From Rhizobium sp. SG_E_25_P2 (GTDB lineage Bacteria; Pseudomonadota; Alphaproteobacteria; Rhizobiales; Rhizobiaceae): a DNA stretch of 64,000 bases. Positions 1 to 13,643 of this stretch are shown here, one piece after another; position 1 is the stretch's first letter, and each line of letters begins with the position of its first letter. The translations under genes and the position numbers were made by a program. The notes below the pieces were generated by a model. That model did not search any database. It was given only the letters and a program-made list of their open reading frames with translations, and was not told the DNA's origin. The DNA lies in NCBI RefSeq assembly GCF_029892285.1, contig NZ_JARXVM010000003.1, positions 1 to 64,000 on the forward strand, given 5' to 3'.

Positions 1-1449
1 TTTCCAGGCGTTCTGGCCGTTTTCCAGGGCTTCCTTCGCGGAAATCTGACCGGTGACAGCGCGGTTGATCTCGTTGCCGAGCGCCTGCTCCATTTCGAAC
101 ATGCCGGGAAGGCGCGGTGCGCACCAGGCGTGTTCGAGGCTGTTGGCCCAGACTTCCATCGGCTGCGAGATGGCGCGCAGCCTTTCATTGCCAAGCACCG
201 AACGATAGCCGGGGGCGACGCCGTTGGCGTTGGCTTCGTTCATGGCCATGATCGAGGAGGTGGTGAGGAAGGCGAGCATCAGGAAAGCGCCTTCCGGATT
301 CTGCGAGGTGGCAGCGACGCAGGAGGTCGAGCCCGCGATGTTCGGCGGGGCGAAGACGCCGCCGGCGATGCGCGGCTCATAGATGGTGACGAAATCGTCG
401 ACGATTTTCGATTGATCGGGCCGCATCGCCTGCGTTCCCGAATCCTGCCAGCTGATATTGGTCGCAACCTGGCCTCCCAACCATGCAGCGCGGTTTTCGC
501 CCCAGCCTGCGCCGGAGGTGCCCTCGATGGCATTCTTCTGCAACGCCATGATAATGTCCATGGCCTTCATGCCGGCGTCGGAAGCGAGCTGTGGATTCCA
601 CTGTTCGTCGAACAGCTTCAGCCCGGCCTGAGCGCCAATATGCTCCCAGGTGTAGGTCGACCAGAAGCCGCGGGCGAGCATCATGCCGAGGCCAGCCACG
701 CCGCCGCCGAGTTTGTTGGCCTCGCCGCTGATGCGGATGAGTTCGTCATAGGAAGGAACGGACTTGGATTTGTCGATCGGCCCGCCGAGGATCTTTTCGA
801 CGATCGACTTGCGCAGATGCACCATCTGGATATCGCAGTCGAAGGGAATGCCGACGAGTTTGCCGCCGAAATAGCCGTAGTTCAGGCGATAGGTGTCGTA
901 GAAATCGTCAAGCGGCAGCTTCCACTTGGCGGCGTAGTCGTCGAGTTCGGCAAGGAAGCCGGGAGCGGCGAAGTCGCCGAGCCAGGGCGAGAAGAACTGC
1001 AGCGCGTCGAAGGAGGCGTTGCCGGACACGAATTCGGCGACGGCCTTGTCATAGAAGCTGTCGTCCGGGATCGGCACGAGTTCGACCTTGATGCCCGACA
1101 GCGCTTCGAACGGCTTCAGGCCTTCTGCGGCGGAATCCTGGTCGGCGGCGCCGATGGCGAAGCGAACCGTTTTGCCGGATTGCTCCGACCGGACCTTTTC
1201 CCAGTCGACGGTGCGGATCCAGTCCTTGGCCGGATCCCACAGCGGATCGGAGCTCAGCTTGTAGAGTTTGCGGTAATCCTCGCGCACATAACCGTCGACC
1301 GAGATCTTGTCGAGCGTCGCCTGGATGTCAGGCAGATTGGACTGCGCATAGGCGGGCAGCTTCAGCCCTGCGGCGCCCGCTGCGAGACCCACCGTGGCGG
1401 TGGTGCGCAAAAACGAGCGACGCGATAGGTTTTGGTTGAATAACGTCAT
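1..1449 (-). CDS. Sugar-type ABC transporter solute-binding protein (C-terminus beyond window)
   Basis: This is an extracellular solute-binding protein of family 1 that would deliver a sugar or polyol to an ABC permease in the periplasm. The reverse strand reads 483 codons from an ATG at 1449 with no stop, so the C-terminus lies outside the window. The N-terminus has a twin-arginine-like signal (SRRSFLR followed by an Ala/Gly-rich hydrophobic run), which suggests Tat export. The mature part has the usual features of large sugar-binding proteins, including a DALQFFSPWLGD segment and an aromatic-rich middle. A GGGAGG ribosome site lies just upstream of the ATG. It diverges from the DRL/dehydrogenase operon at 1698, so the transported compound may be what that operon degrades. 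The family is clear; the substrate is unknown. Confidence 0.85.
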   Translation of the reverse strand, partial: MTLFNQNLSRRSFLRTTATVGLAAGAAGLKLPAYAQSNLPDIQATLDKISVDGYVREDYRKLYKLSSDPLWDPAKDWIRTVDWEKVRSEQSGKTVRFAIGAADQDSAAEGLKPFEALSGIKVELVPIPDDSFYDKAVAEFVSGNASFDALQFFSPWLGDFAAPGFLAELDDYAAKWKLPLDDFYDTYRLNYGYFGGKLVGIPFDCDIQMVHLRKSIVEKILGGPIDKSKSVPSYDELIRISGEANKLGGGVAGLGMMLARGFWSTYTWEHIGAQAGLKLFDEQWNPQLASDAGMKAMDIIMALQKNAIEGTSGAGWGENRAAWLGGQVATNISWQDSGTQAMRPDQSKIVDDFVTIYEPRIAGGVFAPPNIAGSTSCVAATSQNPEGAFLMLAFLTTSSIMAMNEANANGVAPGYRSVLGNERLRAISQPMEVWANSLEHAWCAPRLPGMFEMEQALGNEINRAVTGQISAKEALENGQNAWK

Positions 1450-1468
1450 CGTCAGAATCCTCCCAGAC

Positions 1469-1486
1469 GTCACTCACTGGAGTGAC
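1469..1486. promoter_or_regulatory. 18-bp palindrome in the divergent promoter region
   Basis: Perfect inverted repeat GTCACTC-N4-GAGTGAC, about 20 bp upstream of the start codon of the leftward solute-binding protein gene. A weaker repeat (GTGAA-N7-TTCAC, 1546-1562) lies closer to the middle of the intergenic region. These are candidate operators for the SorC regulator at 6694, or a hairpin in the 5' untranslated leader. No binding data are available. Confidence 0.4.
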
Positions 1487-1644
1487 TGGATTTTCAGGCG
1501 GAACATCAAGACGCGACTCCGTTTCCCCCGCGCTTGCTGCCTGAAGTGAACTTTCGTTTCACAGATGCTCACTATGTACGGAATATTTTACCTGTCAATC
1601 CCCGGTGTTCAGCATTCATCGCGGCACCGCAGCATAAACTAATG

Positions 1645-1672
1645 TTGACAGAAAAAACAAATGTGCAATAAC
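1645..1672 (+). promoter_or_regulatory. Probable sigma-70-type promoter of the DRL/dehydrogenase operon
   Basis: A consensus -35 box TTGACA (1645-1650) is followed after 16 bp by an AATAAC -10-like hexamer (1667-1672). An AGGAGG ribosome site (1687-1692) sits 5 bases before the ATG at 1698. The -35 match is perfect and the -10 match is moderate (4 of 6). Confidence 0.45.
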
Positions 1673-1697
1673 CGAGGCAAGAACCTAGGAGGAAATC

Positions 1698-3017
1698 ATG
1701 CCCACGAATGTCGCCCTCACGGGCCTTGCCCGCGATCTTGCCGCCAGAGCGGAGTCCGGAAAACCCATACGCATCGGATTGGTCGGGGCTGGCGAAATGG
1801 GCACCGACATTGTCAGCCGGGTCGCCCATATGAATGGCGTCCAGATCGGCGCCATCAGCGAATTGAAGCCCGGCGCCGCCCAGAGATCGGTCGAAATCGC
1901 CTATGGCGATAAGGACCGGGTCGTCGAGGTCAGCAATGGCGATCAGGCCAACGCGGCGATGGAGCAGGGCAAGGTCGCCATCACCGACAATGTGAACGCC
2001 CTTCTTGATGCAGGTCTTGTCGATGTCGTGGTTGACGCTACCGGCATTCCCGCCGTCGGCGCAGAGATCGGCCTGACCGCAATGGAGCGCGGCAAGCATC
2101 TCGTGATGATGAATGTCGAGGCCGACATCACCATCGGCGCCTATCTTCGCGCCGAGGCGGAGCGGTTGGGCGTGGTCTATTCGCTCGGCGCCGGTGACGA
2201 GCCGTCGAGCTGCATGGAGCTCATCGAATTCGTCAGCGCCATGGGCCACCGGATCATCAGCGCCGGCAAGGGCAAGAACAATCCGCTCAACATCGACGCG
2301 ACGCCTGACGCCTATGCGAAGGAAGCGTCTGACCGTCATATGAACCCGCGCATGCTGGTGGAATTCGTCGACGGCTCCAAGACTATGGTGGAAATGGCGG
2401 CCATCGCCAACGCCACAGGTCTTACCCCTGACAAGCCCGGCATGCACGGCCCCGCCTGCAGCCGGGAAGAGCTCAACAAGGTGTTGATTCCCGAAAGCGC
2501 CGGCGGCGTGCTGTCTTCCTCGGAGGGACGCGTCGACTTCACCATCGGCAAGGGCGTCGCGCCCGGTGTGTTCGTCGTCGCCGAGATGGATCATCCGCGG
2601 ATCTGGGAGCGGATGGAGGATCTGAAGATGGGCAAGGGGCCTTACTTCACCTTCTTCCGCCCCTATCATCTGACGTCGCTCGAAGTGCCGCTGACCTGCG
2701 CCCGCGTCGTGCTTTACGGCAAGGCCGACATGCAGCCTTTGGCCCGCCCGGTCGCCGAAGTCGGCGCGCTCGCCAAGAAGGATCTGCAGCCCGGCGATCG
2801 TCTCGATCAGATCGGCGAATATTGCTATCGCGCCTGGATCATGACGGTGGAGGACGCCAAATCGGCAGGCGCCATTCCCTGCGGCCTTCTGGCCGGCGCG
2901 ACCGTTACCCGTCCGATCAAGAAGGGCGAGTTGATTACCACCGCCAATGCCTCGGTTCCCGCCGACAGCAAGATTGCCGCGCTGCGCGCTCGCCAAGACG
3001 TCATGCTGGGGCTCTGA
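1698..3017 (+). CDS. DXR-II/DRL-like NAD(P)-dependent oxidoreductase with C-terminal SAF domain
   Basis: A 439-residue protein. A Rossmann fold near the N-terminus carries IGLVGAGEMG (about residues 27-36), and the C-terminus is SAF-like (GLLAGATVTRPIKKGEL). This architecture was long annotated as predicted homoserine dehydrogenase (COG4091). From memory, the N-terminus (TNVALxGLARDLAARAE) and the GKGKNNPLN and AGDEPSSCMELIEFVSA segments closely match the Brucella abortus DRL enzyme, which reduces and isomerises 1-deoxy-D-xylulose 5-phosphate to methylerythritol phosphate in place of DXR. It is the first gene of a tight operon; the E1 alpha gene starts two bases after its stop. That context suggests a catabolic role, perhaps the reverse reaction, rather than isoprenoid synthesis. 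The family call is strong; the reaction here is inferred. Confidence 0.82.
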   Translation: MPTNVALTGLARDLAARAESGKPIRIGLVGAGEMGTDIVSRVAHMNGVQIGAISELKPGAAQRSVEIAYGDKDRVVEVSNGDQANAAMEQGKVAITDNVNALLDAGLVDVVVDATGIPAVGAEIGLTAMERGKHLVMMNVEADITIGAYLRAEAERLGVVYSLGAGDEPSSCMELIEFVSAMGHRIISAGKGKNNPLNIDATPDAYAKEASDRHMNPRMLVEFVDGSKTMVEMAAIANATGLTPDKPGMHGPACSREELNKVLIPESAGGVLSSSEGRVDFTIGKGVAPGVFVVAEMDHPRIWERMEDLKMGKGPYFTFFRPYHLTSLEVPLTCARVVLYGKADMQPLARPVAEVGALAKKDLQPGDRLDQIGEYCYRAWIMTVEDAKSAGAIPCGLLAGATVTRPIKKGELITTANASVPADSKIAALRARQDVMLGL

Positions 3018-3019
3018 TC

Positions 3020-4018
3020 ATGACGGCGCCGGACAACAGACCCTTCGCCATCCGTACATATTCTCCCGATCAGTTGCGGGAAGCGCTCAAGCGCATGTTT
3101 CTGATCCGGCGTTTCGAAGAGGGCGCCGAAGAGAGCTATATGCGCGGCCTCATTCACGGCACGATGCATCTGTCGATCGGGCAGGAAGCCAGCGCCATGG
3201 CGACCTGCATCGAGCTTTCGGACCAGGACAAGATCACCTCCACCCATCGCGGCCACGGCCATTGCATCGCCAAAGGCGCCGATGTCGGCCGGATGTTTGC
3301 CGAATTCTTCGGCAAGGAGACCGGTTATTGCCACGGTCGCGGCGGTTCGATGCATATCGCCGATGTGAAAACCGGCAATCTCGGCGCCAATGGCATTGTC
3401 GGCGGCGGCCTGCCGATCGCGGTCGGCGCGGCGCTCTCGGCCAAGCGCCTGGGCAAGACCGACGTGACGATCTGCTTTTTCGGCGACGGCGCTAACAATG
3501 AAGGGGCCTTCCACGAAGCGCTCAACATGGCGGCCATTTGGAAACTGCCGGTGATCTTCGTCTGCGAAAACAATCGCTACGGCATGTCCACCGCCGTATC
3601 CCGCTCAACCGCCGTGAAGAATATCGCCGAGCGCGCGGCTGCCTATTCCATGCCGGGCGTCACTGTCGACGGCAATGATTTTTCCGCCGTCGCCGAGGCC
3701 GTGCATAACGCGATCGCCCGCGCCCGCGCCGGCGAAGGCCCGAGTCTCGTTGAGAACCTCACCTATCGCTGGCGCGGCCATTCCAAATCCGACCGCAACC
3801 GCTACCGGACCAAGGAGGAGATCGAGGAATGGATGACGCGCGACCCCATCGCCCGTTTCCGCGCGGACCTGATCGGCCATGGAATTCTGGATGAAGCAGG
3901 GGCCAAGTCCATCGAAGAAGCAGCTGTCGCCGATGTGGCGGCCGGAATCGAATTCGCCAAAGCGAGCCTCGCCCCGTCGATCGACGAGGTGACCCGCTAT
4001 GTTTATGCAGAGGCCTGA
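3020..4018 (+). CDS. Thiamine-diphosphate-dependent dehydrogenase E1, alpha subunit (AcoA/PdhA-like)
   Basis: A 332-residue E1 alpha subunit of a 2-oxoacid or acetoin dehydrogenase complex, of the heterotetrameric type. The thiamine diphosphate/Mg motif runs from [13 protein letters not shown] (near residue 155) to CENNRYG, and the upstream SIGQEA and GRGGSMHI segments are typical of the family. The ATG at 3020 is chosen because a longer open frame overlaps the DRL coding region and lacks family homology, whereas 3020 starts two bases after the DRL stop. The partner beta subunit follows with one base between the genes. Pairing with an alpha/beta-hydrolase-type E2 favours an acetoin-type (acyloin-cleaving) complex over pyruvate dehydrogenase. 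The exact substrate is not shown by the sequence. Confidence 0.9.
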
Positions 4019-4019
4019 G

Positions 4020-5033
4020 ATGAACGCTGTGGCGCGAAACCTCGAAGAACGCACGCTGTCTTACTCGGAAGCCATCCGCGAAGCGATGTCGCTCGCCATG
4101 GACGCCGATCCCACCGTGATCCTGATGGGCGAGGACATCGGCGTCTATGGCGGCGCCTTCCAGGTGACGCTCGATCTGGTCGACAAATACGGAACCGATC
4201 GGGTGATGGACACGCCGATTTCCGAACTAGGCGGCGCGGGCGTGGCCGTCGGCGCGGCGCTGACCGGGTTGAAGCCGATCTTCGAGTTTCAGTTTTCCGA
4301 TTTCGCGGCGCTCGCCATGGAGCAGATCGTCAATCAGGCCGCCAAGCTACGTTACATGCTGGGCGGCGAGGCGTCGGTGCCGGTCGTCTTCCGCATGCCC
4401 GCGGGATCCGGCACGGGCGCCGCGGCGCAGCACAGCCAGAGCCTGGAGGCCTGGTTCGGCCATGTTCCCGGTCTCAAGGTCGTCCAGCCCTCTACGCCGG
4501 AAGACGCCAAGGGCCTTCTGCTGGCGGCGCTCGCCGATCCCGATCCGGTGCTGATTTTCGAGCATAAGCTCCTCTACAAGATGAAGGGCCATGTGCCGGA
4601 GGGCCATTACACCGTGCCGATCGGCAAGGCGGCGGTGCGGAGGCAGGGCAAAGATCTCACCATTGTCGCCAGTTCGATCATGGTGCATCGCGCGCTCGAG
4701 GCGGCCGAGCGGCTTGCGGCTGACGGCATGGATATCGAAGTCATTGATCTCAGATCGGTTCGCCCGATTGATCGCGACACAATCCTGGCTTCGGTACGCA
4801 AGACCGGCAAACTGATGGTCGTCTATGAGGGTGTCAAAAGCTACGGCGTCGGCGCCGAGATCAGCGCCATGGTGGCCGAGAGCGACGCCTTCGACTTTCT
4901 CGATGCGCCGATCCTGAGGCTTGGCGGCGCGGAAGCGCCTGTGCCCTATAATCCCGACCTCGAGCGCGCTTCGGTGCCGCAGGTCGACACGATCGAGGCG
5001 GCGGCCCGCCGTCTGCTCGGCGGCGAGGTCTGA
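4020..5033 (+). CDS. Thiamine-diphosphate-dependent dehydrogenase E1, beta subunit (AcoB/PdhB-like)
   Basis: A 337-residue E1 beta subunit, the transketolase pyrimidine-binding and C-terminal half of the E1 heterotetramer. Diagnostic segments are [34 protein letters not shown] and the C-terminal [13 protein letters not shown], all in the expected order and at normal family length. The ATG at 4020 starts just after the TGA of the alpha subunit, so the two are probably translationally coupled. It works with the alpha subunit to bind thiamine diphosphate, cleave the substrate and transfer an acyl (probably acetyl) group to a lipoyl arm of the E2 encoded next. No oddities were seen. Confidence 0.9.
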
Positions 5034-5034
5034 C

Positions 5035-6666
5035 ATGCCTGTCGAGGTGATCCTGCCGAAAGTGGACATGGACATGACCCATGGCACGCTCGCGACCTGG
5101 CATGTCGCGGAAGGCGACTATGTGGAAAAAGGCGCGCCTTTGTTCGACATCGAAACCGACAAGGCGGCGATGGAGGTGGAAGCCCCCGCCAGCGGACGAT
5201 TGAGCGCGGTAACGGCCCAGCCGGGTGATAGGATCCCCGTGGGTTCCGTGGTCGCCTTCCTTCTTGCCGAGGGCGAAAGCGCGCCGGTCGGGGAGGTCGT
5301 CGCCGCAACCACCGACCCGGCGACCGCAATCTCAAAAGCGGTGGAGGTTATTCTACCGAAGGTCGACATGGACATGACCGAGGGTCAGATCGCCGTCTGG
5401 CATGTCGCCGAAGGCGCTCATGTGGAAAAGGGCGCGCCGCTGTTCGATATCGAGACCGATAAGGCGGCGATGGAAGTGGACGCGCCCGCCAGCGGTGTGC
5501 TTCAACAGGTGACAGCCGCCCCAGGCGATCGCGTGCCGGTGGGGCAAGTCATCGCCTATATCTGCCCTCCCGGCGTTTTTCTGAGTCGTCCGCCCCAGGG
5601 CGCGTCGAAGCCCGCTGCATTCGCGGCTTCGCTCTCCAATAGTCCGACAAGCGGCGCGCGCAGTTCTGTTTCCCTCCCAGCATCGCCGCTGGCGCCGATC
5701 GTTGCAGATGCGACGATGGATGGTCTACGCGCCACGCCGGCGGCGCGGGCCGAGGCGCGCAGATCCGCGATTGCCCTTTCCGATGTCGCCGGCACAGGCC
5801 CGCTCGGCCGTATCCAGATCGCGGATGTGCGCCGCCATCGATCGGGCCGATCCGAGGCGGGCCCACTTTATACGCCTGGCTGGATCGCGGAGCGCGGCCC
5901 CTTGCATGTATCGCGGCGGAGCGGTGACGGTGCGCCTATTGTGCTGATTCATGGCTTTGCTGCCGATAGTCCGAGTTGGACGCCGTTTGAGCGGGAATTG
6001 CGGCTGCCAAACCCGTTGATCCGAATCGATCTCCCGGGACATGGGAGATCACCGAAGCTGAATATCGCAAGCTTCGCCGAGCTTGCCAAACTGGTCGGTA
6101 AAACGGTGGATTCACAGGCGGAAAGTAGCCCTGTTCATTTGATCGGCCATTCCCTTGGCGGAGCGATCGCCCTCGCCATCGCCGACATCAGGCCGAAGAT
6201 GGTATCCACCCTGTCTCTGCTTGCGCCGGGTGGTCTTGGTCCTGAAATCGACGCAGCCGCCTTGCGTGGAATAGCAAGGGCTTCGCGCGTTGAGAGCCTT
6301 GCGCCGTGGCTTCGGCGGCTCACAGCCTTCCCTGAAGGCGTCAGCGATGATTATGCGAGGGCCGCCATGAAGCAGCGGATGGATGCGCGGATGCGGCTCT
6401 ATCAGGCCGATCTATGCGACGTTCTGTTTCCCGATGGCGTCCAGTCATTCGATCTGCGCCCCGCCGTGGGCCGATTGACGACGCCGACGGTGATGGTGTG
6501 GGGCAAAAGAGATCATATTCTTCCCCTCAGGCAAGTGCTTGCGGTTGATGGAGATTTTGCTATTCATCTCCTCAACGATACGGGCCATGCGCCCCAGATC
6601 GAATGCCCCGAGCGGCTCGCTAGGATCGTCCGCCGACATATCGTTGCAGCGACGGTGTCTGTATGA
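5035..6666 (+). CDS. Acetoin-dehydrogenase-type E2: two lipoyl domains, E3-binding domain and alpha/beta-hydrolase domain
   Basis: A 543-residue E2-like subunit starting one base after the E1 beta stop. Two lipoyl domains lie at residues 1-80 and 101-180; their DIETDKAAMEV motifs put the lipoylated lysines at K43 and K143, exactly 100 residues apart. A peripheral subunit-binding domain follows (about 230-268, ATPAARAEAR to GPLGRIQIADV). Residues 285-543 form an alpha/beta-hydrolase fold with VLIHGFA, nucleophile S373 in GHSLGG, probable acid D493 and H518. The usual acyltransferase domain of pyruvate dehydrogenase E2 (HxxxDG) is absent. This is the arrangement of AcoC-type acetoin dehydrogenase subunits, here with a duplicated lipoyl domain. 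No E3 gene is nearby, so a dihydrolipoamide dehydrogenase must come from elsewhere. Confidence 0.88.
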   Translation: MPVEVILPKVDMDMTHGTLATWHVAEGDYVEKGAPLFDIETDKAAMEVEAPASGRLSAVTAQPGDRIPVGSVVAFLLAEGESAPVGEVVAATTDPATAISKAVEVILPKVDMDMTEGQIAVWHVAEGAHVEKGAPLFDIETDKAAMEVDAPASGVLQQVTAAPGDRVPVGQVIAYICPPGVFLSRPPQGASKPAAFAASLSNSPTSGARSSVSLPASPLAPIVADATMDGLRATPAARAEARRSAIALSDVAGTGPLGRIQIADVRRHRSGRSEAGPLYTPGWIAERGPLHVSRRSGDGAPIVLIHGFAADSPSWTPFERELRLPNPLIRIDLPGHGRSPKLNIASFAELAKLVGKTVDSQAESSPVHLIGHSLGGAIALAIADIRPKMVSTLSLLAPGGLGPEIDAAALRGIARASRVESLAPWLRRLTAFPEGVSDDYARAAMKQRMDARMRLYQADLCDVLFPDGVQSFDLRPAVGRLTTPTVMVWGKRDHILPLRQVLAVDGDFAIHLLNDTGHAPQIECPERLARIVRRHIVAATVSV

Positions 6667-6693
6667 TATTTCTACAGCGAGGATTCACTGAGG

Positions 6694-7659
6694 ATGCAAG
6701 TGGCGCAACCCTTGACTGGCGTGCAGAGCGATGCCGATCGAATTCGTGCTCGCGCCGTATGGCTCTATCACGTTGAGGGTCTGACGCAGAACGAGATCGC
6801 AAATCAGCTCGGTATCAACCGGGTTATGGTCGTGCGCGCACTTGCGGACGCCAGGCGGCGAAACGAGGTCCGTGTCACCGTATCCGCGCCATTGGCGGAA
6901 CTGGTGGAGCTCGAAAGAAATGTCGAGAAGAGCTTCGGCATCAACCGGGTGATTGTGGCTCCGTTTTCTGATCCGGACGGCGATCCGGTGCGGGTGATTG
7001 CCGCAGCCGCCGGCAATTTTATTTCCGGCATCATGAAACCAGGGCTCACAGTCGGCGTGGGCTGGGGGCGTACGCTCTACAATACGCTGCCTTTCATCAA
7101 TGGCGGCACGCTTGAGGATTTCCGGGTCGTCTCCCTTCTCGGCGGCATAGCGGCTGCTCGCCGTTTCAATCCCGCCGAATTCGCCTGGCAGTTTGCGGAA
7201 CTGTTCCAGGGGGATGGTTACTTGGTGCCTGCGCCAGCCGTCGTCGACAGTATCGAAACGAAACACGCCCTTCTCGAACGTTGCGGCCTGGCCGCCATCT
7301 TCGAAATGGCCGACAAACTGGATGTGGCGCTGCTCTCCGTCGGCGGCATTTCGACGCTCACGACCAGCTATCGCGCCGGTTATATCAGCGAAGCCGACCG
7401 CCGATCGCTGATCGAAGCAGGCGCTGTCGGCGACGTATTGTATAACTTCATTGGGAAAAACGGCGAAATCCTCGACCACGAGGTGAATTCCCGCGTCATA
7501 TCCGTCAATCCCACGCGCCTGGGCCGCACGCCGGAGCGCGTGCTGATTTCGGGCGGGAAAGATAAAATCGTCGCGCTCAAGGCGGCCATTCGCACAGTGT
7601 CGCCGACAACCTTCATCACGGATGAGCAGACGGCAACGAGTCTGGCACGCGGCGTTTGA
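6694..7659 (+). CDS. SorC-family sugar-responsive transcriptional regulator
   Basis: A 321-residue SorC/DeoR-type regulator. The helix-turn-helix is near residues 30-60 (VEGLTQNEIANQLGINRVMVVRAL). It is followed by the family's sugar-phosphate-binding effector domain with GLTVGVGWGRTLYN and the C-terminal GGKDKIVALKAAIR segment. Length is typical. It lies 27 bases after the E2 gene and is probably cotranscribed, so it is the likely local regulator of the operon and perhaps of the divergent solute-binding protein gene. SorC members usually sense phosphorylated sugars, which fits a sugar or polyol phosphate as the operon's substrate. The ATG at 6694 is preceded by a GAGGA element. The effector is unknown. 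Confidence 0.9.
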   Translation: MQVAQPLTGVQSDADRIRARAVWLYHVEGLTQNEIANQLGINRVMVVRALADARRRNEVRVTVSAPLAELVELERNVEKSFGINRVIVAPFSDPDGDPVRVIAAAAGNFISGIMKPGLTVGVGWGRTLYNTLPFINGGTLEDFRVVSLLGGIAAARRFNPAEFAWQFAELFQGDGYLVPAPAVVDSIETKHALLERCGLAAIFEMADKLDVALLSVGGISTLTTSYRAGYISEADRRSLIEAGAVGDVLYNFIGKNGEILDHEVNSRVISVNPTRLGRTPERVLISGGKDKIVALKAAIRTVSPTTFITDEQTATSLARGV

Positions 7660-7825: not shown

Positions 7826-8374
7826 CTAGCTGAGGTTAGCGTCGATCCAGGCGCGAGTCTCCTCCAGAATCTCATCCGATAGCGCCTGATCGTCGACCGA
7901 CCGTGCAAGGATGACGGCCCCTACCATGGCAGCCCAACTTCCTATCGCGGCGCGGCGTGCATCGGACGAGCCTTTGTTCGGGAGAGCCTTGTCGATACGA
8001 GCGATCTGCGCGCGAAGGCCATCTGCCATGGCGGTGTGAGCTGCCGGTGTTTGGTGGCGGATTGAAGCGGCAAGTCCTGCGGTGGGGCAACCGCCGGCGG
8101 CGTTGTCGCGATGGCGGCGTGACAGATAGGAACCGACGAAAGCGCGATAATCTCCTTCTCCAACGCTATCCGCAGCAAGCGCATGGGCGAGCGTCTGCGC
8201 CACCAGATCGTCCTTCGAACTAAAATGTCCATAAAAGCCACCGTGTGTGAGGCCTGCGGCCTTCATAACCTCCGCAACGCTGACGGCATCGAATCCCTTG
8301 TCGCGAAACAGCCGGCTTGCTGCATCCAGGATTCGGCGTCGGTTCTCAGCCATCTGTTCTCGACTGACCTTCAT
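7826..8374 (-). CDS. TetR-family transcriptional regulator
   Basis: A 182-residue TetR regulator. The N-terminal helix-turn-helix contains AASRLFRDKGFDAVSVAEVM and GLTHGGFYGHFSSKDDL, which is typical of the subgroup guarding short-chain dehydrogenase and reductase genes. Alternative in-frame ATGs lie at 8389 and 8404. The start at 8374 (MKVSREQM) is preferred because a GGAG lies nine bases upstream and because MKVSREQM is a common beginning in this subgroup. It is transcribed away from the SDR gene at 8485. A palindromic operator array at 8409-8450 lies between them and recurs before the operon at 10871, so this protein is the best candidate to repress both. The ligand is unknown. Confidence 0.88.
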   Translation of the reverse strand: MKVSREQMAENRRRILDAASRLFRDKGFDAVSVAEVMKAAGLTHGGFYGHFSSKDDLVAQTLAHALAADSVGEGDYRAFVGSYLSRRHRDNAAGGCPTAGLAASIRHQTPAAHTAMADGLRAQIARIDKALPNKGSSDARRAAIGSWAAMVGAVILARSVDDQALSDEILEETRAWIDANLS

Positions 8375-8397
8375 TTGAAAATTCTCCATGACGATCG

Positions 8398-8450
8398 TTG
8401 ACATTTACATGATGAGCATCATATTTAGCATCAATCATGATGATTGTCAT
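8398..8450 (+). promoter_or_regulatory. Promoter with paired palindromic operators (copy 1)
   Basis: A TTGACA -35 box (8398-8403) is followed by the perfect palindrome ATGATG-AG-CATCAT (8409-8422) and, 28 bp further on, an imperfect copy (8437-8450). A -10-like CATATT (8420-8425, 16-bp spacing) overlaps the first palindrome, so a bound repressor would block RNA polymerase. The 42-bp core matches the array at 10763-10804 without gaps at 33 positions by my count. An overlapping CAATCA-N3-TGATTG repeat lies at 8432-8446. Confidence 0.65.
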
Positions 8451-8484
8451 GAATATAAGTGCAGCTACAGAAAAGAGCAATCCA

Positions 8485-9273
8485 ATGAGCCAACTTCCCG
8501 CAGTTCTTATTACCGGCGCTTCCACAGGCATTGGCGCCATCTATGCCGACCGGTTCGCTCGGCGTGGGCATGATTTGGTGCTGGTCGCACGCGACATTGC
8601 GCGCATGGAGGCGGTTGCAGGCCGTTTGCGTCAGGAAACCGGCGTTACGATCGATATCCTTCAGGCAGACCTGACGCAGCCCGCTGATCTTGCCAAGGTC
8701 GAGACGCGGCTGCGTGACGATGCGCATATCGGCATCCTGGTCAACAATGCCGGCACGGCCATTGGTGGAACCTTCGTCGAGCAGAGCACCGACGACATGA
8801 GCAGGCTTGTCGCACTAAACACGACAGCGCTTGTCCGGCTTGCAAGCGCCATAGCGCCCCGACTTGCCAAGGTCGGCGAGGGAGCGATCGTCAATATTGG
8901 TTCTGTGGTCGGACTGGCGCCTGAATTCGGGATGTCGGTTTATGGCGCCACCAAGGCTTTTGTTCTCTTCCTGTCTCAGGGGCTCGATCTGGAGCTTGGT
9001 CCGAAAGGCGTCTACGTCCAGGCGGTGCTTCCGGCCACAACCCGAACCGAGATCTGGGAACATGTCGGCGCGGACGTCAACGCCATGAACAATGTGATGG
9101 AAGTGGCCGATCTTGTGGATGCGGCGCTGGTCGGCTTCGACCGTCGCGAACCTGTGACGATCCCGCCGCTTCATGACGCTGGGCAATGGGACGCTTTCGA
9201 CGCAGCGCGCAAAGCCATGCTCGGCAATCTCGTGAACGCACTTCCTGCGGAGCGATACCGCAGGCTCGCCTGA
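8485..9273 (+). CDS. Short-chain dehydrogenase/reductase
   Basis: A 262-residue classical SDR. The NAD(P)-binding motif GASTGIG is at residues 11-17, NNAG at 87-90, catalytic serine at S140, and YGATK with Y153 and K157. The ATG at 8485 (MSQLPAVLIT) is chosen because upstream in-frame ATGs fall in or beside the operator at 8437-8450, and a purine-rich AAAGAG lies seven bases before this one. The gene is divergent from tetR and followed by the old-yellow-enzyme gene 56 bases downstream, so it probably heads a two-gene TetR-repressed unit. The substrate is unknown; it may reduce aldehydes or ketones formed during breakdown of a hydrophobic compound. Confidence 0.88.
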   Translation: MSQLPAVLITGASTGIGAIYADRFARRGHDLVLVARDIARMEAVAGRLRQETGVTIDILQADLTQPADLAKVETRLRDDAHIGILVNNAGTAIGGTFVEQSTDDMSRLVALNTTALVRLASAIAPRLAKVGEGAIVNIGSVVGLAPEFGMSVYGATKAFVLFLSQGLDLELGPKGVYVQAVLPATTRTEIWEHVGADVNAMNNVMEVADLVDAALVGFDRREPVTIPPLHDAGQWDAFDAARKAMLGNLVNALPAERYRRLA

Positions 9274-9329
9274 GCGTTTCGCAACCAACGAGTCAATACC
9301 GCAAGCAGCGGCAACACTACAGGTATAAC

Positions 9330-10424
9330 ATGTCTGATAACTCGCTTTTCGAACCCTATGCGCTTGGGTCCGTGACCCTTTCCAATCGGATTGTCATGGC
9401 TCCGTTGACGCGCAACCGCGCCGGCGCCGGCTTCGTTCCGGGCGACATCACCGCCGAATATTACGCTCAGAGGGCTTCGGCTGGTCTGATCATTTCCGAA
9501 GCGACCCAGATTTCGCAACAGGGGCAGGGCTATCAGGACACACCCGGAATCTACACCGATGCCCAGATCGAGGGTTGGCGCAAGGTTACCACAGCCGTGC
9601 ACGAGAAGGGCGGGCGCATCTTTCTCCAGCTTTGGCATGTCGGTCGCATCAGCCATGTCGATCTTCAGCCGAATGGCGGGCCGCCGGTTGCGCCCTCCGC
9701 GATCCGAGCCGAAACCAAGACCTTCGTCAACAACGGCTTCGTCGATGTGTCCGAGCCGCGTGCGCTGGAACTGTATGAGTTGGCTGGGATCGTGAACGAC
9801 TTCCGTCAGGCTGCAGCCAACGCCATCAAGGCGGGCTTCGATGGTGTCGAGGTTCACGGGGCCAATGGCTATTTGCTTGAGCAGTTCGCCAAGGACGGCT
9901 CCAATGTTCGCACGGACGCCTATGGCGGTTCTGTCGAAAACCGCACGCGCATGTTGCTGGAGGTCACCGCTGCAGTCATTGAAGAAATTGGCGCAGAGCG
10001 CACCGGCGTCCGGATTTCGCCAGTCTCTCCCGCGAATGGCATCTCGTGCAGTGATCCCCAGGCGCAGTTCGACTATATTGTCGATCAGCTCAATGCGCTC
10101 GGCATCGCCTATATTCATGTCGTCGAAGGCGCTACCGGTGGGCCCCGCGACGTCGCGCCGTTCGACTACGGTTCCCTTCGCCGTCGTTTCAGCAAAACCT
10201 ATATCGCCAATAATGGCTACAATCTTGATCTCGCGACCTCGCATCTCGCTGATGACAACGCGGATCTGATCGCCTTTGGACGGCCCTTCATTGGCAACCC
10301 TGATCTGGTGGCGCGCCTGCAAAGCGGCGCGCCTCTGGCGCCGTTCGATCCTGCAACGATTTATGGCGGTGGCGCTGCGGGTTATACCGACTATGCGCCT
10401 TACTCTCCGGCATCCGGCAAATGA
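9330..10424 (+). CDS. Old-yellow-enzyme-family alkene reductase (NemA-like)
   Basis: A 364-residue FMN-dependent ene-reductase of the N-ethylmaleimide/xenobiotic reductase group. It reduces activated carbon-carbon double bonds, or nitro and nitrate-ester groups, using NAD(P)H. Visible motifs are APLTRNRA near the N-terminus, the FMN-site LWHVGRISH, the substrate-anion-binding pair H176 and N179 in EVHGANGY, and FGRPFIGNPDLVARL at the C-terminal phosphate site. The ATG at 9330 gives the family's normal N-terminus (SLFEPYALGSVTLSNR); a longer open frame runs upstream through the SDR gene. It sits behind the TetR-controlled SDR and is followed by a strong hairpin. The physiological substrate is not known. 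Confidence 0.92.
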   Translation: MSDNSLFEPYALGSVTLSNRIVMAPLTRNRAGAGFVPGDITAEYYAQRASAGLIISEATQISQQGQGYQDTPGIYTDAQIEGWRKVTTAVHEKGGRIFLQLWHVGRISHVDLQPNGGPPVAPSAIRAETKTFVNNGFVDVSEPRALELYELAGIVNDFRQAAANAIKAGFDGVEVHGANGYLLEQFAKDGSNVRTDAYGGSVENRTRMLLEVTAAVIEEIGAERTGVRISPVSPANGISCSDPQAQFDYIVDQLNALGIAYIHVVEGATGGPRDVAPFDYGSLRRRFSKTYIANNGYNLDLATSHLADDNADLIAFGRPFIGNPDLVARLQSGAPLAPFDPATIYGGGAAGYTDYAPYSPASGK

Positions 10425-10750
10425 GAGGAGGGGGCCGAGCCTGAGTGCGGCCCCCCCCCCAAGATGCGAGTGGTCCATGATTCTTGCGCTGACGTGAACG
10501 GCGCATCGAAAAGCCTCAGGCCTTCCCAGGATACTCGTCAAATGATTTGGCGTGCTGGATTAAACCGGGACGATCTTTGGGCTTCTCACCCCCCCCCCGC
10601 ATATGGTCGACGCGACCTGTCGGCCTTTCATGCGTCACCGCATAATGTCGAACCGCGAATTCCTGGCGCTCCGCCAAGCCATCAAGCGCTTTGTTCTCGC
10701 CGACACATCGTAACAAAAACCAAGGGTTAGGTATCGCTAAAATATCTCGC
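10425..10750. other. Intergenic region with two C10 homopolymer tracts
   Basis: No credible gene was found between the old-yellow-enzyme stop and the promoter at 10751. Two runs of ten cytosines lie at 10451-10460 and 10589-10598. The first follows the 3' arm of a terminator-like hairpin. Such runs are slippage-prone, so their exact length may vary between cells or be uncertain in the assembly. Confidence 0.6.
10430..10455 (+). terminator. Terminator-like hairpin after the old-yellow-enzyme gene
   Basis: An 8-bp perfect G+C stem, GGGGGCCG (10430-10437) with CGGCCCCC (10448-10455), has a 10-base loop and starts six bases after the stop codon. It is followed by cytosines rather than a T tract, so termination efficiency is uncertain. 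Confidence 0.5.
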
Positions 10751-10804
10751 TTGACAATAATGATGATGCGCGTCATGAATAGCATCAATGATGATGAACA
10801 TCAT
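10751..10804 (+). promoter_or_regulatory. Promoter with paired palindromic operators (copy 2)
   Basis: TTGACA (10751-10756) precedes an imperfect palindrome ATGATG-CG-CGTCAT (10763-10776). Exactly 28 bp later comes the perfect palindrome ATGATG-AA-CATCAT (10791-10804). Spacing and the central TAGCATCAAT segment are conserved with the array at 8409-8450, so the same regulator, probably the TetR at 7826-8374, should control this promoter and the genes from 10871. Confidence 0.65.
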
Positions 10805-10870
10805 AAATAAGAATGAGCAATCCTCCAGCCCGCGCCGGAAAGGCGCGCGGCTCAGATAGAGAACAAAATC

Positions 10871-11695
10871 ATGACGACCTCTGTTGCAATAAAGCCGAAG
10901 ACTGCATTTGTGACCGGGGCATCCAGTGGGATAGGCAAGGCTGCCGCCCTGGTGCTTTCAGGGGCGGGCTACACGGTGATTGGAACCAGCCGGAAGGCTG
11001 CGCCGGACGAGATGCGCGACGGCATTCGAATGATCGCTTGCGACGTGACCTCTGATGTGTCGGTTGCTGAGGCTGTTGCGCTTGCCCATTCGGAACTTGG
11101 CGGGATCGACCTTCTGGTCAACAATGCCGGTTACGCCGTGTCAGGTGCGGCCGAGGAAAGCTCGGTGGAGCAGGTGCGGTCGCTGTTTGACACCAATTTC
11201 TTAGGCGTGGTGCGGGTGACAAACGCTATACTTCCGATCATGCGTCGCCAGGGCTATGGGAGGATCCTGAATATTGGCTCCGTCGTCGGGCTTATTCCGG
11301 GTCCTTTCGGCGCTTATTATACCGCCAGCAAGCATGCGATCGAAGGTTATTCGGAATCGCTGGACCATGAGGTGCGGCAGTTTGGCATCCGGGTTGCCGT
11401 GATCGAGCCCTGGGCCACGAAGACATCCATTGAGGCCAATTCGCCGCAGGGCGATCGTCCTGTTGCGGCCTATAGCCAGACATTCGCCAAATATCAGGCC
11501 GCGTTTAATGCGGCCATGGCGGCCGGCGACACGGCGGAAGATGTTGCTGCAACTATCCTTGCAGCGGCGCAGGCCAAGACGCCGCGGCTGCGTTACCCCT
11601 CCGGCAAAGCGGCAAGACAGACCTCCTTTGCCCGGCGTTTCCTGCCGCGCGCGCTGTTCGACCGCATTTTGCGCAAACAGTTCAACATCGCCTGA
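10871..11695 (+). CDS. Short-chain dehydrogenase/reductase
   Basis: A 274-residue classical SDR with GASSGIG (residues 16-22), NNAG (84-87), catalytic S137, Y150 and K154 (YTASK), and a C-terminal extension rich in basic residues (KAARQTSFARRFLPR). It is probably the first gene of the second operator-controlled unit, followed by the hydrolase and quinone-reductase genes with short gaps. It is not a recent duplicate of the SDR at 8485; the two differ throughout outside the fold motifs. The substrate is unknown. The ATG at 10871 is the natural family start and follows an AGAGAA purine stretch. Confidence 0.88.
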   Translation: MTTSVAIKPKTAFVTGASSGIGKAAALVLSGAGYTVIGTSRKAAPDEMRDGIRMIACDVTSDVSVAEAVALAHSELGGIDLLVNNAGYAVSGAAEESSVEQVRSLFDTNFLGVVRVTNAILPIMRRQGYGRILNIGSVVGLIPGPFGAYYTASKHAIEGYSESLDHEVRQFGIRVAVIEPWATKTSIEANSPQGDRPVAAYSQTFAKYQAAFNAAMAAGDTAEDVAATILAAAQAKTPRLRYPSGKAARQTSFARRFLPRALFDRILRKQFNIA

Positions 11696-11743
11696 GACCG
11701 CAAGCTCCAACCACGCGTCTCATCCAGGGCAAGTAGGACCATC

Positions 11744-12607
11744 ATGACAAACCTATCCAAGGCGCTCCTCTCAGCGACCCGCTATCTCGACGCTCCCAAT
11801 CGTTTCGTTAATATAGGGAGAACCCAACTTGCCTATCGCGAGCTTGGTCCACGCGGCGGCGTTCCTTTGGTGCTCCTGAACCATTGGGGTGCAGTGCTCG
11901 ACAACTTCGACCCCAGAATAGTCGATGCGCTCGCCGCCTTTCACCACGTGATCGCCGTAGACTACCAGGGGATTGGCCTTTCCAGTGGAACGGCCCCTGT
12001 GACCATTGACGGGATGGCTCGCGATGCAATCGATATGATCGGCGCACTTGGCTTTGAAGCCGTCGATCTGATGGGCTTTTCGCTTGGCGGGTTCGTGGCG
12101 CAGGATATTGCATTAAAAGCGCCCGGTCTGGTGCGCAAATTGATCCTGACCGGCACGGGCCCCGCAGGCGGCGCGGGCATTGCAAAGGTTGGGGCGGTCT
12201 CCTGGCCATTGATCATCAAGGGTATGCTGACCCTGCGCGACCCGAAAACCTATCTATTCTTCACCTCGACGGCCAATGGGCGCCGTGCGGCAAAAGACTT
12301 TCTGGCGCGGTTGAAGGAGCGTAAACTGGATCGCGACAAGGACCCGACTCCGCGCGCCTTCCTGCGTCAGCTTGCGGCGATCAAGGCCTGGGGCCGCCAG
12401 GCGCCGCAGGATCTCAGTCGCATTGGTGTCCCTGTTCTTGTGGCGAATGGCGACACTGACATTATGGTGCCTACGGCCAACAGTCATGACTTGGCCAGAC
12501 GCATCCCTGATGCTGAACTGGTTCTTTACGAAGACGCCGGTCACGGCGGGATCTTCCAATATCATGCCGAGTTTGCGCCGAAAGCCCTGGCTTTCCTGGC
12601 CGCCTGA
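11744..12607 (+). CDS. Alpha/beta-hydrolase-fold protein
   Basis: A 287-residue cytoplasmic alpha/beta hydrolase with LLNHWGAVLDNFDP in the oxyanion-hole region, nucleophile S113 in GFSLGG, an acid in NGDTDIMVP and the terminal histidine in DAGHGG. It resembles the haloperoxidase/esterase subgroup that commonly accompanies TetR-controlled reductases. An AGGA element precedes the ATG at 11744. It lies 48 bases after the SDR gene and 31 bases before the quinone-reductase-like gene, consistent with one transcript. It may hydrolyse an ester or lactone formed by the neighbouring oxidoreductases, but the substrate cannot be read from the sequence. Confidence 0.85.
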   Translation: MTNLSKALLSATRYLDAPNRFVNIGRTQLAYRELGPRGGVPLVLLNHWGAVLDNFDPRIVDALAAFHHVIAVDYQGIGLSSGTAPVTIDGMARDAIDMIGALGFEAVDLMGFSLGGFVAQDIALKAPGLVRKLILTGTGPAGGAGIAKVGAVSWPLIIKGMLTLRDPKTYLFFTSTANGRRAAKDFLARLKERKLDRDKDPTPRAFLRQLAAIKAWGRQAPQDLSRIGVPVLVANGDTDIMVPTANSHDLARRIPDAELVLYEDAGHGGIFQYHAEFAPKALAFLAA

Positions 12608-12638
12608 TCTGATTAAAGTTTCACACTGGAGAAAGCGC

Positions 12639-13643
12639 GTGAAAGCCTTCGTCGTCGACAAATACAAGAAGAAGGGCGCGCTGCGCCTGGCCGATATGCC
12701 CGATCCCCGGATGGGCGCCAATGATGTTCTGGTTCGGATCGCGGCCACTGCGATCAATCTTCTGGACTCCAAGGTTCGAGACGGCGAATTCAAGCTGTTC
12801 CTGCCCTATCGTCCGCCTTTCGTTCTGGGTCACGATCTGGCTGGAACCGCTGTCAGCGTTGGCGCGAATGTGAGGCAATTCAAAGCAGGGGACGAGGTTT
12901 ACGCCCGCCCGCGCGATCACCGGGCCGGCACTTTTGCAGAACTCATCGCAGTCGATGCCGCAGACCTCGCGCTGAAACCGGCAAGTCTTTCGATGGAGCA
13001 GGCCGCATCGATCCCGTTGGTCGGACTGACCGCTTGGCAGGCTCTGGTGGAGGTGGGCAAGCTTAAGCCCGGCCAGAAGGTGTTCATTCAGGCCGGTTCG
13101 GGCGGAGTGGGGACCTTTGCCATCCAGCTTGCCAAGCATCTCGGCGCCACGGTGGCCACCACGACCAGTGCTGCGAATATGGAACTTGTGAAGAGCCTCG
13201 GCGCAGATGTTGTGATCGACTACAAGACACAGGATTTCGAACAGCTCCTGTCCGGTTACGACCTGGTGCTGAACAGCCAGGACGCCAAGACGCTGGCAAA
13301 GTCGCTCAACGTCCTGAAACCGGGTGGAAAGCTGATCTCCATTTCCGGCCCTCCCGATGTTCCCTTTGCCAAGTCTCTGGGGCTGAACCTGTTTCTGCGA
13401 TTTGTGATGCGGATGTTGAGCCGCGGCGTGCTGAAGAAGGCGAAAAGCCGCGGCGTCGGATATTCCTTTCTGTTCATGCGCGCCGAGGGGAAGCAGTTGG
13501 CCGAGATCGCGAAGCTGATTGATTCCGGCGCCATACGCCCTGTCGTAGACAAGGTGTACCCTTTCGCCAAAACGGCGGAAGCCTTGGCCTATGTCGAGAC
13601 CGGGCGCGCCAAGGGAAAGGTCGTGGTCAAGGTTGCCGTTTAG
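12639..13643 (+). CDS. Zinc-independent MDR-family NADP-dependent quinone reductase-like protein
   Basis: A 334-residue medium-chain dehydrogenase/reductase of the quinone oxidoreductase type. The GroES-like domain (VLGHDLAGTAVSVG) lacks the zinc-binding cysteines. The Rossmann domain has AGSGGVGTFAIQLAKHLGA near residues 148-164, and the C-terminus ends AKGKVVVKV as usual for the family. The start is a GTG at 12639 (VKAFVVDKYKKKG) with GGAG seven bases upstream; an upstream ATG in the same frame would run through the hydrolase gene and is rejected. It probably reduces quinones or alpha,beta-unsaturated carbonyls with NADPH as part of the same detoxification or catabolic unit. Confidence 0.87.
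   Translation: MKAFVVDKYKKKGALRLADMPDPRMGANDVLVRIAATAINLLDSKVRDGEFKLFLPYRPPFVLGHDLAGTAVSVGANVRQFKAGDEVYARPRDHRAGTFAELIAVDAADLALKPASLSMEQAASIPLVGLTAWQALVEVGKLKPGQKVFIQAGSGGVGTFAIQLAKHLGATVATTTSAANMELVKSLGADVVIDYKTQDFEQLLSGYDLVLNSQDAKTLAKSLNVLKPGGKLISISGPPDVPFAKSLGLNLFLRFVMRMLSRGVLKKAKSRGVGYSFLFMRAEGKQLAEIAKLIDSGAIRPVVDKVYPFAKTAEALAYVETGRAKGKVVVKVAV

Follow-up and report, generated by a model that had tools for sequence, protein, structure and literature searches.

A conserved operon joining DXR type II to a thiamine diphosphate- and lipoyl-dependent complex: a candidate route for methylerythritol catabolism

Results

The DRL gene cluster and its replicon

The stretch of DNA analysed here (the window) comprises 64,000 nucleotides of Rhizobium sp. 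SG_E_25_P2, and its first 7,659 bases hold a cluster built around a gene for DRL, the type II DXR that interconverts 1-deoxyxylulose 5-phosphate (DXP) and methylerythritol phosphate (MEP). A first-pass annotation of these bases had read a tandem of DRL, E1 alpha, E1 beta, an AcoC-like E2 and a SorC regulator, with a sugar-binding protein gene diverging from it. Both the genes and their tight spacing were confirmed, with 2 bases between DRL and E1 alpha, 1 between E1 alpha and E1 beta and 1 between E1 beta and E2. The features, with the support for each, are as follows.

1..1473, minus strand: sugar ABC transporter substrate-binding protein (SBP; SBP_bac_1), divergent (PF01547, 81 bits; 3' end across the contig join)
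1469..1697, no strand: divergent control region (alignment of 15 divergent regions)
1698..3017, plus strand: DRL/DXR type II, proposed MEP-to-DXP oxidoreductase (PF21135, homology to 3UPY/3UPL, DXR-II residues)
3020..4018, plus strand: thiamine diphosphate (ThDP)-dependent E1 alpha of a proposed DXP-cleaving complex (PF00676, 303 bits; operon E1 clade)
4020..5033, plus strand: E1 beta (PF02779, PF02780; operon E1 clade)
5035..6666, plus strand: E2, proposed to transfer acetyl to CoA (two PF00364, PF02817, PF12697; NF011457)
6694..7659, plus strand: SorC/DeoR-type sugar-binding regulator (PF04198, 170 bits; sugar-binding domain present)

Within the control region, the motifs GTGAACTTTCGTTTCACA (1546-1563) and AACAAATGTGCAATA (1656-1670) have similar counterparts in relatives across the 15 aligned regions, and we regard both as probable SorC sites.

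The window begins at base 1 of a contig of 324,245 bases (C3). The two ends of this contig share an overlap of about 90 bases, which makes it most likely that position 1 marks an arbitrary break in a circular replicon. The window thus probably lies on a circle of about 324 kb opened inside the SBP gene, whose frame (1-1473, minus strand; alternative start at 1449, placed by eye) leaves the contig at its edge. A sugar kinase had been predicted just beyond position 1, and a PfkB gene was found at C3:320254-321210, about 3 kb before that position. The kinase is 95% identical to that of a sister locus (L042), and the same-strand open frames between it and the SBP gene match ABC transporter genes of L042. 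There, as in L125 from the window's own genome, the SBP gene is followed by permease, ATPase and PfkB kinase genes.

Identity of the DRL protein

The window DRL matches PF21135 at 223 bits (cut-off 27) and aligns over its full length with Brucella DRL (3UPY and 3UPL; 650 and 649 bits), with which it shares the catalytic domain and the ligand and dimer residues. A C-terminal SAF domain (PF08666) scored 20.1 bits, its cut-off being 21. The window protein differs from Brucella DRL in that its gene shares an operon with E1/E2, that its genome also has DXR-I, and that the reverse direction is proposed for it. Residues K191, K193, T229 and R320 are named as important for DXR-II in the available text of a 2013 family survey (PMC3847144), and all four are present in the window DRL and in 58 of 58 operon rows of our alignment (two places counted twice). 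Of the three rows labelled DLO, none had K193 or T229 and one had R320.

Conservation of the operon and its input modules

We compared the 80 nearest public DRL loci, a selection made on DRL similarity and hence weighted towards the operon type; gene calls in loci fetched without annotation came from a simple script. E1 alpha, E1 beta and E2 lie downstream of DRL in 74 of these 80, which excludes chance adjacency, and we rejected that explanation.

The operon is also accompanied by genes that could supply its substrate. A PfkB kinase, a glucitol-type phosphotransferase system (PTS) or an importer resembling AfuABC flanks 52 of 54 operon loci and none of 22 solitary DRL genes (Fisher p 3.8e-17), in a control that covers these three modules, takes loci of at least 19 kb (3 of 25 solitary loci being too short) and counts the identical L023 and L052 once. 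Among the 51 public operon loci flanked by 10 kb on each side, the operon-type PfkB kinase occurs alone in 21, the PTS alone in 17 and the AfuABC-like importer alone in 8; 2 combine PTS and kinase, 1 kinase and AfuABC-like importer, and 2 have none. That two modules meet in only 3 of 51 loci is as expected if the modules do the same job, and all three routes would deliver a phosphorylated substrate.

The closest Protein Data Bank entries to the binding protein of the AfuABC-like importer are 8x1a, 4r72-4r75 and 6wce; 6wce is named a pyridoxal-phosphate-binding protein, and the 4r7x entries we take to be AfuA, a sugar-phosphate binder. Nine loci (L107, L120, L098 and L046 among them) carry this importer, 8 of them showing no kinase or PTS, and 6 of the nine encode a metallo-beta-lactamase-fold hydrolase, often together with a calcineurin-like phosphodiesterase (SurE in L046). 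Such loci may import MEP or its cyclodiphosphate. In 12 of the 51 operon loci (among them L063, L053 and L129, the last a plasmid locus of Sinorhizobium meliloti Rm41), a gene pair for an FAD-dependent protein resembling glycerol-3-phosphate dehydrogenase and a zinc alcohol dehydrogenase is present, which may admit stereoisomers or deoxypolyols.

The operon E1 forms a clade apart from acetoin dehydrogenases

In a phylogeny of concatenated E1 alpha and E1 beta sequences, the 14 sampled alphaproteobacterial operon E1s formed one clade (100/99), apart from a separate clade of four acetoin-cluster E1s (99.4/99). Six residues, R42, H46, T48 and K256 of E1 alpha and K187 and K273 of E1 beta, are kept (or exchanged K for R or R for K) in the 14 operon E1s and in that of Priestia aryabhattai (described below), and are not kept in the four acetoin-cluster E1s or in the pyruvate dehydrogenase (PDH) E1 of the window's own genome. 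Together with an adjoining conserved HL motif, these residues would suit a larger, phosphorylated substrate.

The window E2 has two lipoyl domains, one E3-binding domain and one alpha/beta hydrolase domain, and passes the acetoin-dehydrogenase E2 model NF011457 (418 bits, cut-off 307), while E1 alpha falls under the PDH equivalog cut-off of TIGR03182 (381.4 against 393.85). As to its catalytic domain, E2 belongs to the AcoC type in the window and in three further cases that were scanned; Sinorhizobium meliloti and Priestia have a domain of the classical 2-oxoacid type, so either kind may complete the reaction. The first-pass description of an acetoin-type cleavage complex needs refining for the E1, whose descent lies apart from acetoin dehydrogenases. 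Unlike the acetoin clusters compared, the genes of the window cluster include no acoX, acoR or butanediol dehydrogenase.

The complex shares with the acetoin dehydrogenase system (AcoA, AcoB, AcoC, AcoL) its E1 alpha/beta type and AcoC-type E2, and would, like that system, split a methyl acyloin into acetyl-CoA and an aldehyde, but has an E1 clade of its own. DXP synthase acts on the same DXP bond by ThDP chemistry; the operon complex, with two E1 subunits and a lipoyl E2, is proposed to reach the net opposite outcome. Precedent for the chemistry comes from the available text of PMC3424233, in which a mutant PDH E1 leads to DXP in vivo and reports of PDH and acetoin dehydrogenase forming 1-deoxyketoses are cited.

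A Clostridioides difficile cluster of SorC, E1, E1, E2 and LpdA genes (L145, NZ_CP033217.1) groups with the Priestia E1 and not with the acetoin-cluster E1s, and the substrate of its complex may not be acetoin. No DRL was found among the annotated genes of NZ_CP033217.1 from 52000 to 85408.

Redundancy of DRL and DXR-I

A search of the window's genome for a separate dxr gene found DXR-I on contig C10, and DRL in a single copy. The presence of this ordinary dxr ruled out DRL as the genome's sole isoprenoid enzyme.

We extended the search to 247 genomes of the family, using E <= 1e-100 for DRL and E <= 1e-130 for the operon-type E1 alpha and scoring the best first-look candidates (7 or 8 per genome for two protein queries), so that missed copies are possible. 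DRL was found in 157 genomes, DXR-I in 92, both in 8 and neither in 6. The two are therefore almost mutually exclusive, and 6 of the 8 genomes with both have the operon E1. In genome G042 (94% complete) neither DXR-I nor a close DRL was found, only a 33% DRL-like protein.

The operon-type E1 alpha occurred in 41 of the 247 genomes and, by coordinates, adjoins DRL in 34; of the other 7, one has it on another contig, three have a DRL whose place is not among the matches listed, and three are contig-edge cases. Another DXR is present in 23 of the 34, as DXR-I in 6 and as a second DRL elsewhere in 17, and in the remaining 11 the operon DRL was the only DXR found. One of these 11 (G654) has a stop inside the E1 reading frame. 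IspD, which consumes MEP, was matched in all 11, in G654 in pieces and under the cut-off. As no other DXR was found in these genomes, the operon DRL probably interconverts DXP and MEP.

Comparison of duplicate DRLs pointed the same way. In three of the 17 genomes with a second DRL, the operon and separate proteins are identical at 434 of 434 (G621), 434 of 435 (G564) and 431 of 433 (G036) positions, with DNA identities of 98.3%, 95.7% and 98.7%, and genome searches found no DXR-I in any of the three; in the other 14 the two copies share 61 to 89% identity. Differences in G564 and G621 are mostly silent, indicating that selection kept one protein in both places. Phyllobacterium endophyticum likewise has two DRL copies identical at 434 of 436 positions, and no DXR-I was found there. 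Near-identical copies without DXR-I imply that one enzyme fills both roles, and to judge from such comparisons the operon DRL most likely has true DXP/MEP activity.

DXR-I was found in 29 of the 49 genomes reached through 50 of the public loci, all 29 being among the 44 with an operon locus, versus none of the 5 for which only a solitary locus was fetched. Of the 15 operon genomes without DXR-I, second-DRL status is known for one (G691), which carries both an operon and a solitary DRL. The genome of Rhodobacteraceae C1_MAG_00057 carries two different DRL operons (L047, L070) plus DXR-I.

Distribution and descent of the cassette

A plasmid of Priestia aryabhattai (Bacillota) encodes in one stretch a glucitol PTS, HPr, E1 alpha, E1 beta, E2, LpdA, two SorC regulators, an MFS transporter, DRL (43%) and an FGGY kinase, with DRL and the FGGY kinase about 8-9 kb from E1/E2/E3.

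Lactobacillales make isoprenoids by the mevalonate pathway, which makes MEP synthesis a most improbable role for their DRL. At the DRL/PTS loci L128 and L134 of this order, DRL is adjoined in Ligilactobacillus by genes annotated as fructose-6-phosphate aldolase and transketolase, and in Enterococcus raffinosus, where gene names were assigned by eye and with tblastn, by a phosphoketolase named by eye. These neighbours hint at other ways of splitting the product. DXR-II is also reported from Finegoldia and Anaerococcus, which have no MEP or mevalonate genes, in the available text of the survey (PMC3847144).

We built a DRL tree of 90 rows by a quick method, with two operon places entered twice. 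Solitary genes turn up in it at scattered points between operon genes, with 8 label changes for operon rows and 9 for solitary rows, compared with shuffled means of 26.6 and 22.1. The window DRL falls within a 25-row, mostly Rhodobacterales set (support 97), from which we conclude that transfer probably brought the cassette into its genus. DRL was found in 3 of 9 searched genomes of that genus, and a class-wide search recovered it at E <= 1e-100 in 3 of 385 genomes, the window's own included.

Neighbouring genes

Two adjoining proteins without a significant Pfam match accompany the operon (L042:3009-3647 and L042:3634-4341, both minus strand; 6609-7947 in L125). Relatives of the first, which lies beside the kinase (alignment A1), occur in 33 of the 51 operon loci; its structural model (pLDDT 81) is mostly helical and gave no significant fold match (best E 0.84). 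A second PfkB kinase, 43% identical to that of the operon, is encoded elsewhere in the genome (G000:C4:22821-23738). Downstream of the cluster, positions 7826-13643 of the window hold a TetR regulator followed by SDR, old-yellow-enzyme-like, SDR, hydrolase and quinone-oxidoreductase-like genes, all but TetR named by eye.

Discussion

A proposed pathway and its alternatives

We consider it likely that the operon serves the inducible catabolism of 2-C-methyl-D-erythritol or a closely related compound, which would pass through MEP and DXP to acetyl-CoA and glyceraldehyde 3-phosphate; every substrate and direction in this scheme is one that we infer. The polyol would be imported by the ABC transporter and phosphorylated by the PfkB kinase; elsewhere the glucitol-type PTS or an organophosphate importer would replace these two, the substrate perhaps arriving already phosphorylated. 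DRL would then act in the oxidative direction, converting MEP and NADP+ to DXP. E1 alpha/beta would attack DXP as a methyl-ketone acyloin, releasing glyceraldehyde 3-phosphate and passing the acetyl group to lipoyl-E2, from which E2 would form acetyl-CoA while E3 handed the electrons back to NAD+. SorC would sense a phosphorylated intermediate and induce the divergent promoters. Methylerythritol from plants and 2-methyltetrols derived from isoprene are plausible supplies. SorC-regulated polyol operons of the sorbitol or erythritol type have the regulator, ABC or glucitol PTS import and a kinase in common with this one, and we know of none that holds DRL plus a ThDP/lipoyl complex. The first-pass annotation had put forward a catabolic route through DRL and E1/E2 as a candidate, and its genomic expectations of a separate dxr and a kinase were borne out; the linkage of DRL to E1/E2, to input modules and to SorC proved to be conserved as well, with one case in a second phylum.

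Several observations weigh against this proposal. The DXR equilibrium favours MEP, and 11 of the 34 genomes in which E1 adjoins DRL must rely on the operon DRL for biosynthesis too. Listeria, E. raffinosus and Ligilactobacillus salivarius combine DRL with a SorC-type regulator and a glucitol PTS, and no E1/E2 was found within 9 kb. Operon loci L078 and L079 have no input module within 10 kb, and 6 of the 22 solitary DRLs have a ribose-type ABC permease (at least 35% identity) nearby. The Priestia E1 joins the operon clade with moderate support (96.8/71), its nearest partner being the C. difficile cluster (76.3/82). Finally, a different branched polyol phosphate would be equally compatible with these comparative data. 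The logic of the operon might hold for a different branched or deoxy polyol, such as 2-C-methylthreitol, apiitol or 1-deoxyxylitol, with DXP/MEP conversion one of several DRL activities; the FAD-dependent and zinc dehydrogenase genes in 12 of 51 operon loci would agree with this, and the aldolase with transketolase, or the phosphoketolase, near Lactobacillales DRLs would suit xylulose 5-phosphate. We nevertheless think such a substrate unlikely, as the operon DRL can have the very protein sequence of the isoprenoid DXR and keeps the tested DXR-II residues, and an acetyl-transferring E2 would want a methyl ketone.

The operon might instead be biosynthetic, its E1 supplying DXP, as the mutant PDH E1 can (in the available text of PMC3424233) and as the 11 genomes in which no other DXR was found would allow. 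A lipoyl E2 (accompanied in S. meliloti by E3 and LipA), sugar importers, kinases, PTS and SorC fit catabolism, and with another DXR in 23 of the 34 genomes we judge this role very improbable. Salvage, in which imported methylerythritol would enter isoprenoids and, via DXP, thiamine and pyridoxal, would suit the Listeria and E. raffinosus loci with DRL and PTS and no E1/E2 found nearby; E1/E2/E3, however, would drain DXP into central metabolism, to no purpose in salvage, and we give this account still less credence. Least of all do we expect an ordinary acetoin or pyruvate dehydrogenase beside an unrelated DRL: the E2 does pass the acetoin-dehydrogenase model, but the E1 lies outside the acetoin clade, its alpha subunit is under the PDH cut-off, the window cluster lacks the acetoin genes named above, and the linkage recurs in 74 of 80 loci.

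Implications

The component families of the methylerythritol cassette are known, and its arrangement and direction appear to be new. Among titles and abstract openings of the open literature, which leaves subscription journals mostly outside, we found no account of an operon of this kind that breaks down MEP, DXP or methylerythritol. No degradation pathway for methylerythritol or 2-methyltetrols appeared in the literature listing, and the available text of PMC6529453 names these compounds only in its references. As far as its main text was available, the 2013 survey contains none of 'acetoin', 'pyruvate dehydrogenase' and 'catabol', and has 'operon' only in a reference title (PMC3847144).

If our reading is true, compounds known only as biosynthetic intermediates would have a route of breakdown, with a dehydrogenase complex dedicated to cleaving DXP. 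The reading would also answer a question left open in the available text of the survey (PMC3847144), namely how DXR-II evolved in bacteria already having DXR-I, and would explain DXR-II in the two bacteria without MEP or mevalonate genes. We suggest tentatively, as a scenario with somewhat less than even prospects, that DXR-II began, or chiefly persists, as the catabolic enzyme of a mobile methylerythritol cassette, that several lineages losing DXR-I later recruited copies of it for isoprenoids, and that the substrates of the cassette include plant methylerythritol, isoprene-derived 2-methyltetrols of the atmosphere and perhaps, via the AfuABC-like importer, phosphorylated compounds such as methylerythritol cyclodiphosphate. 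The presence of a DRL gene in a genome is then no proof of an isoprenoid role, and a carbon sink for methylerythritol and 2-methyltetrols becomes testable.

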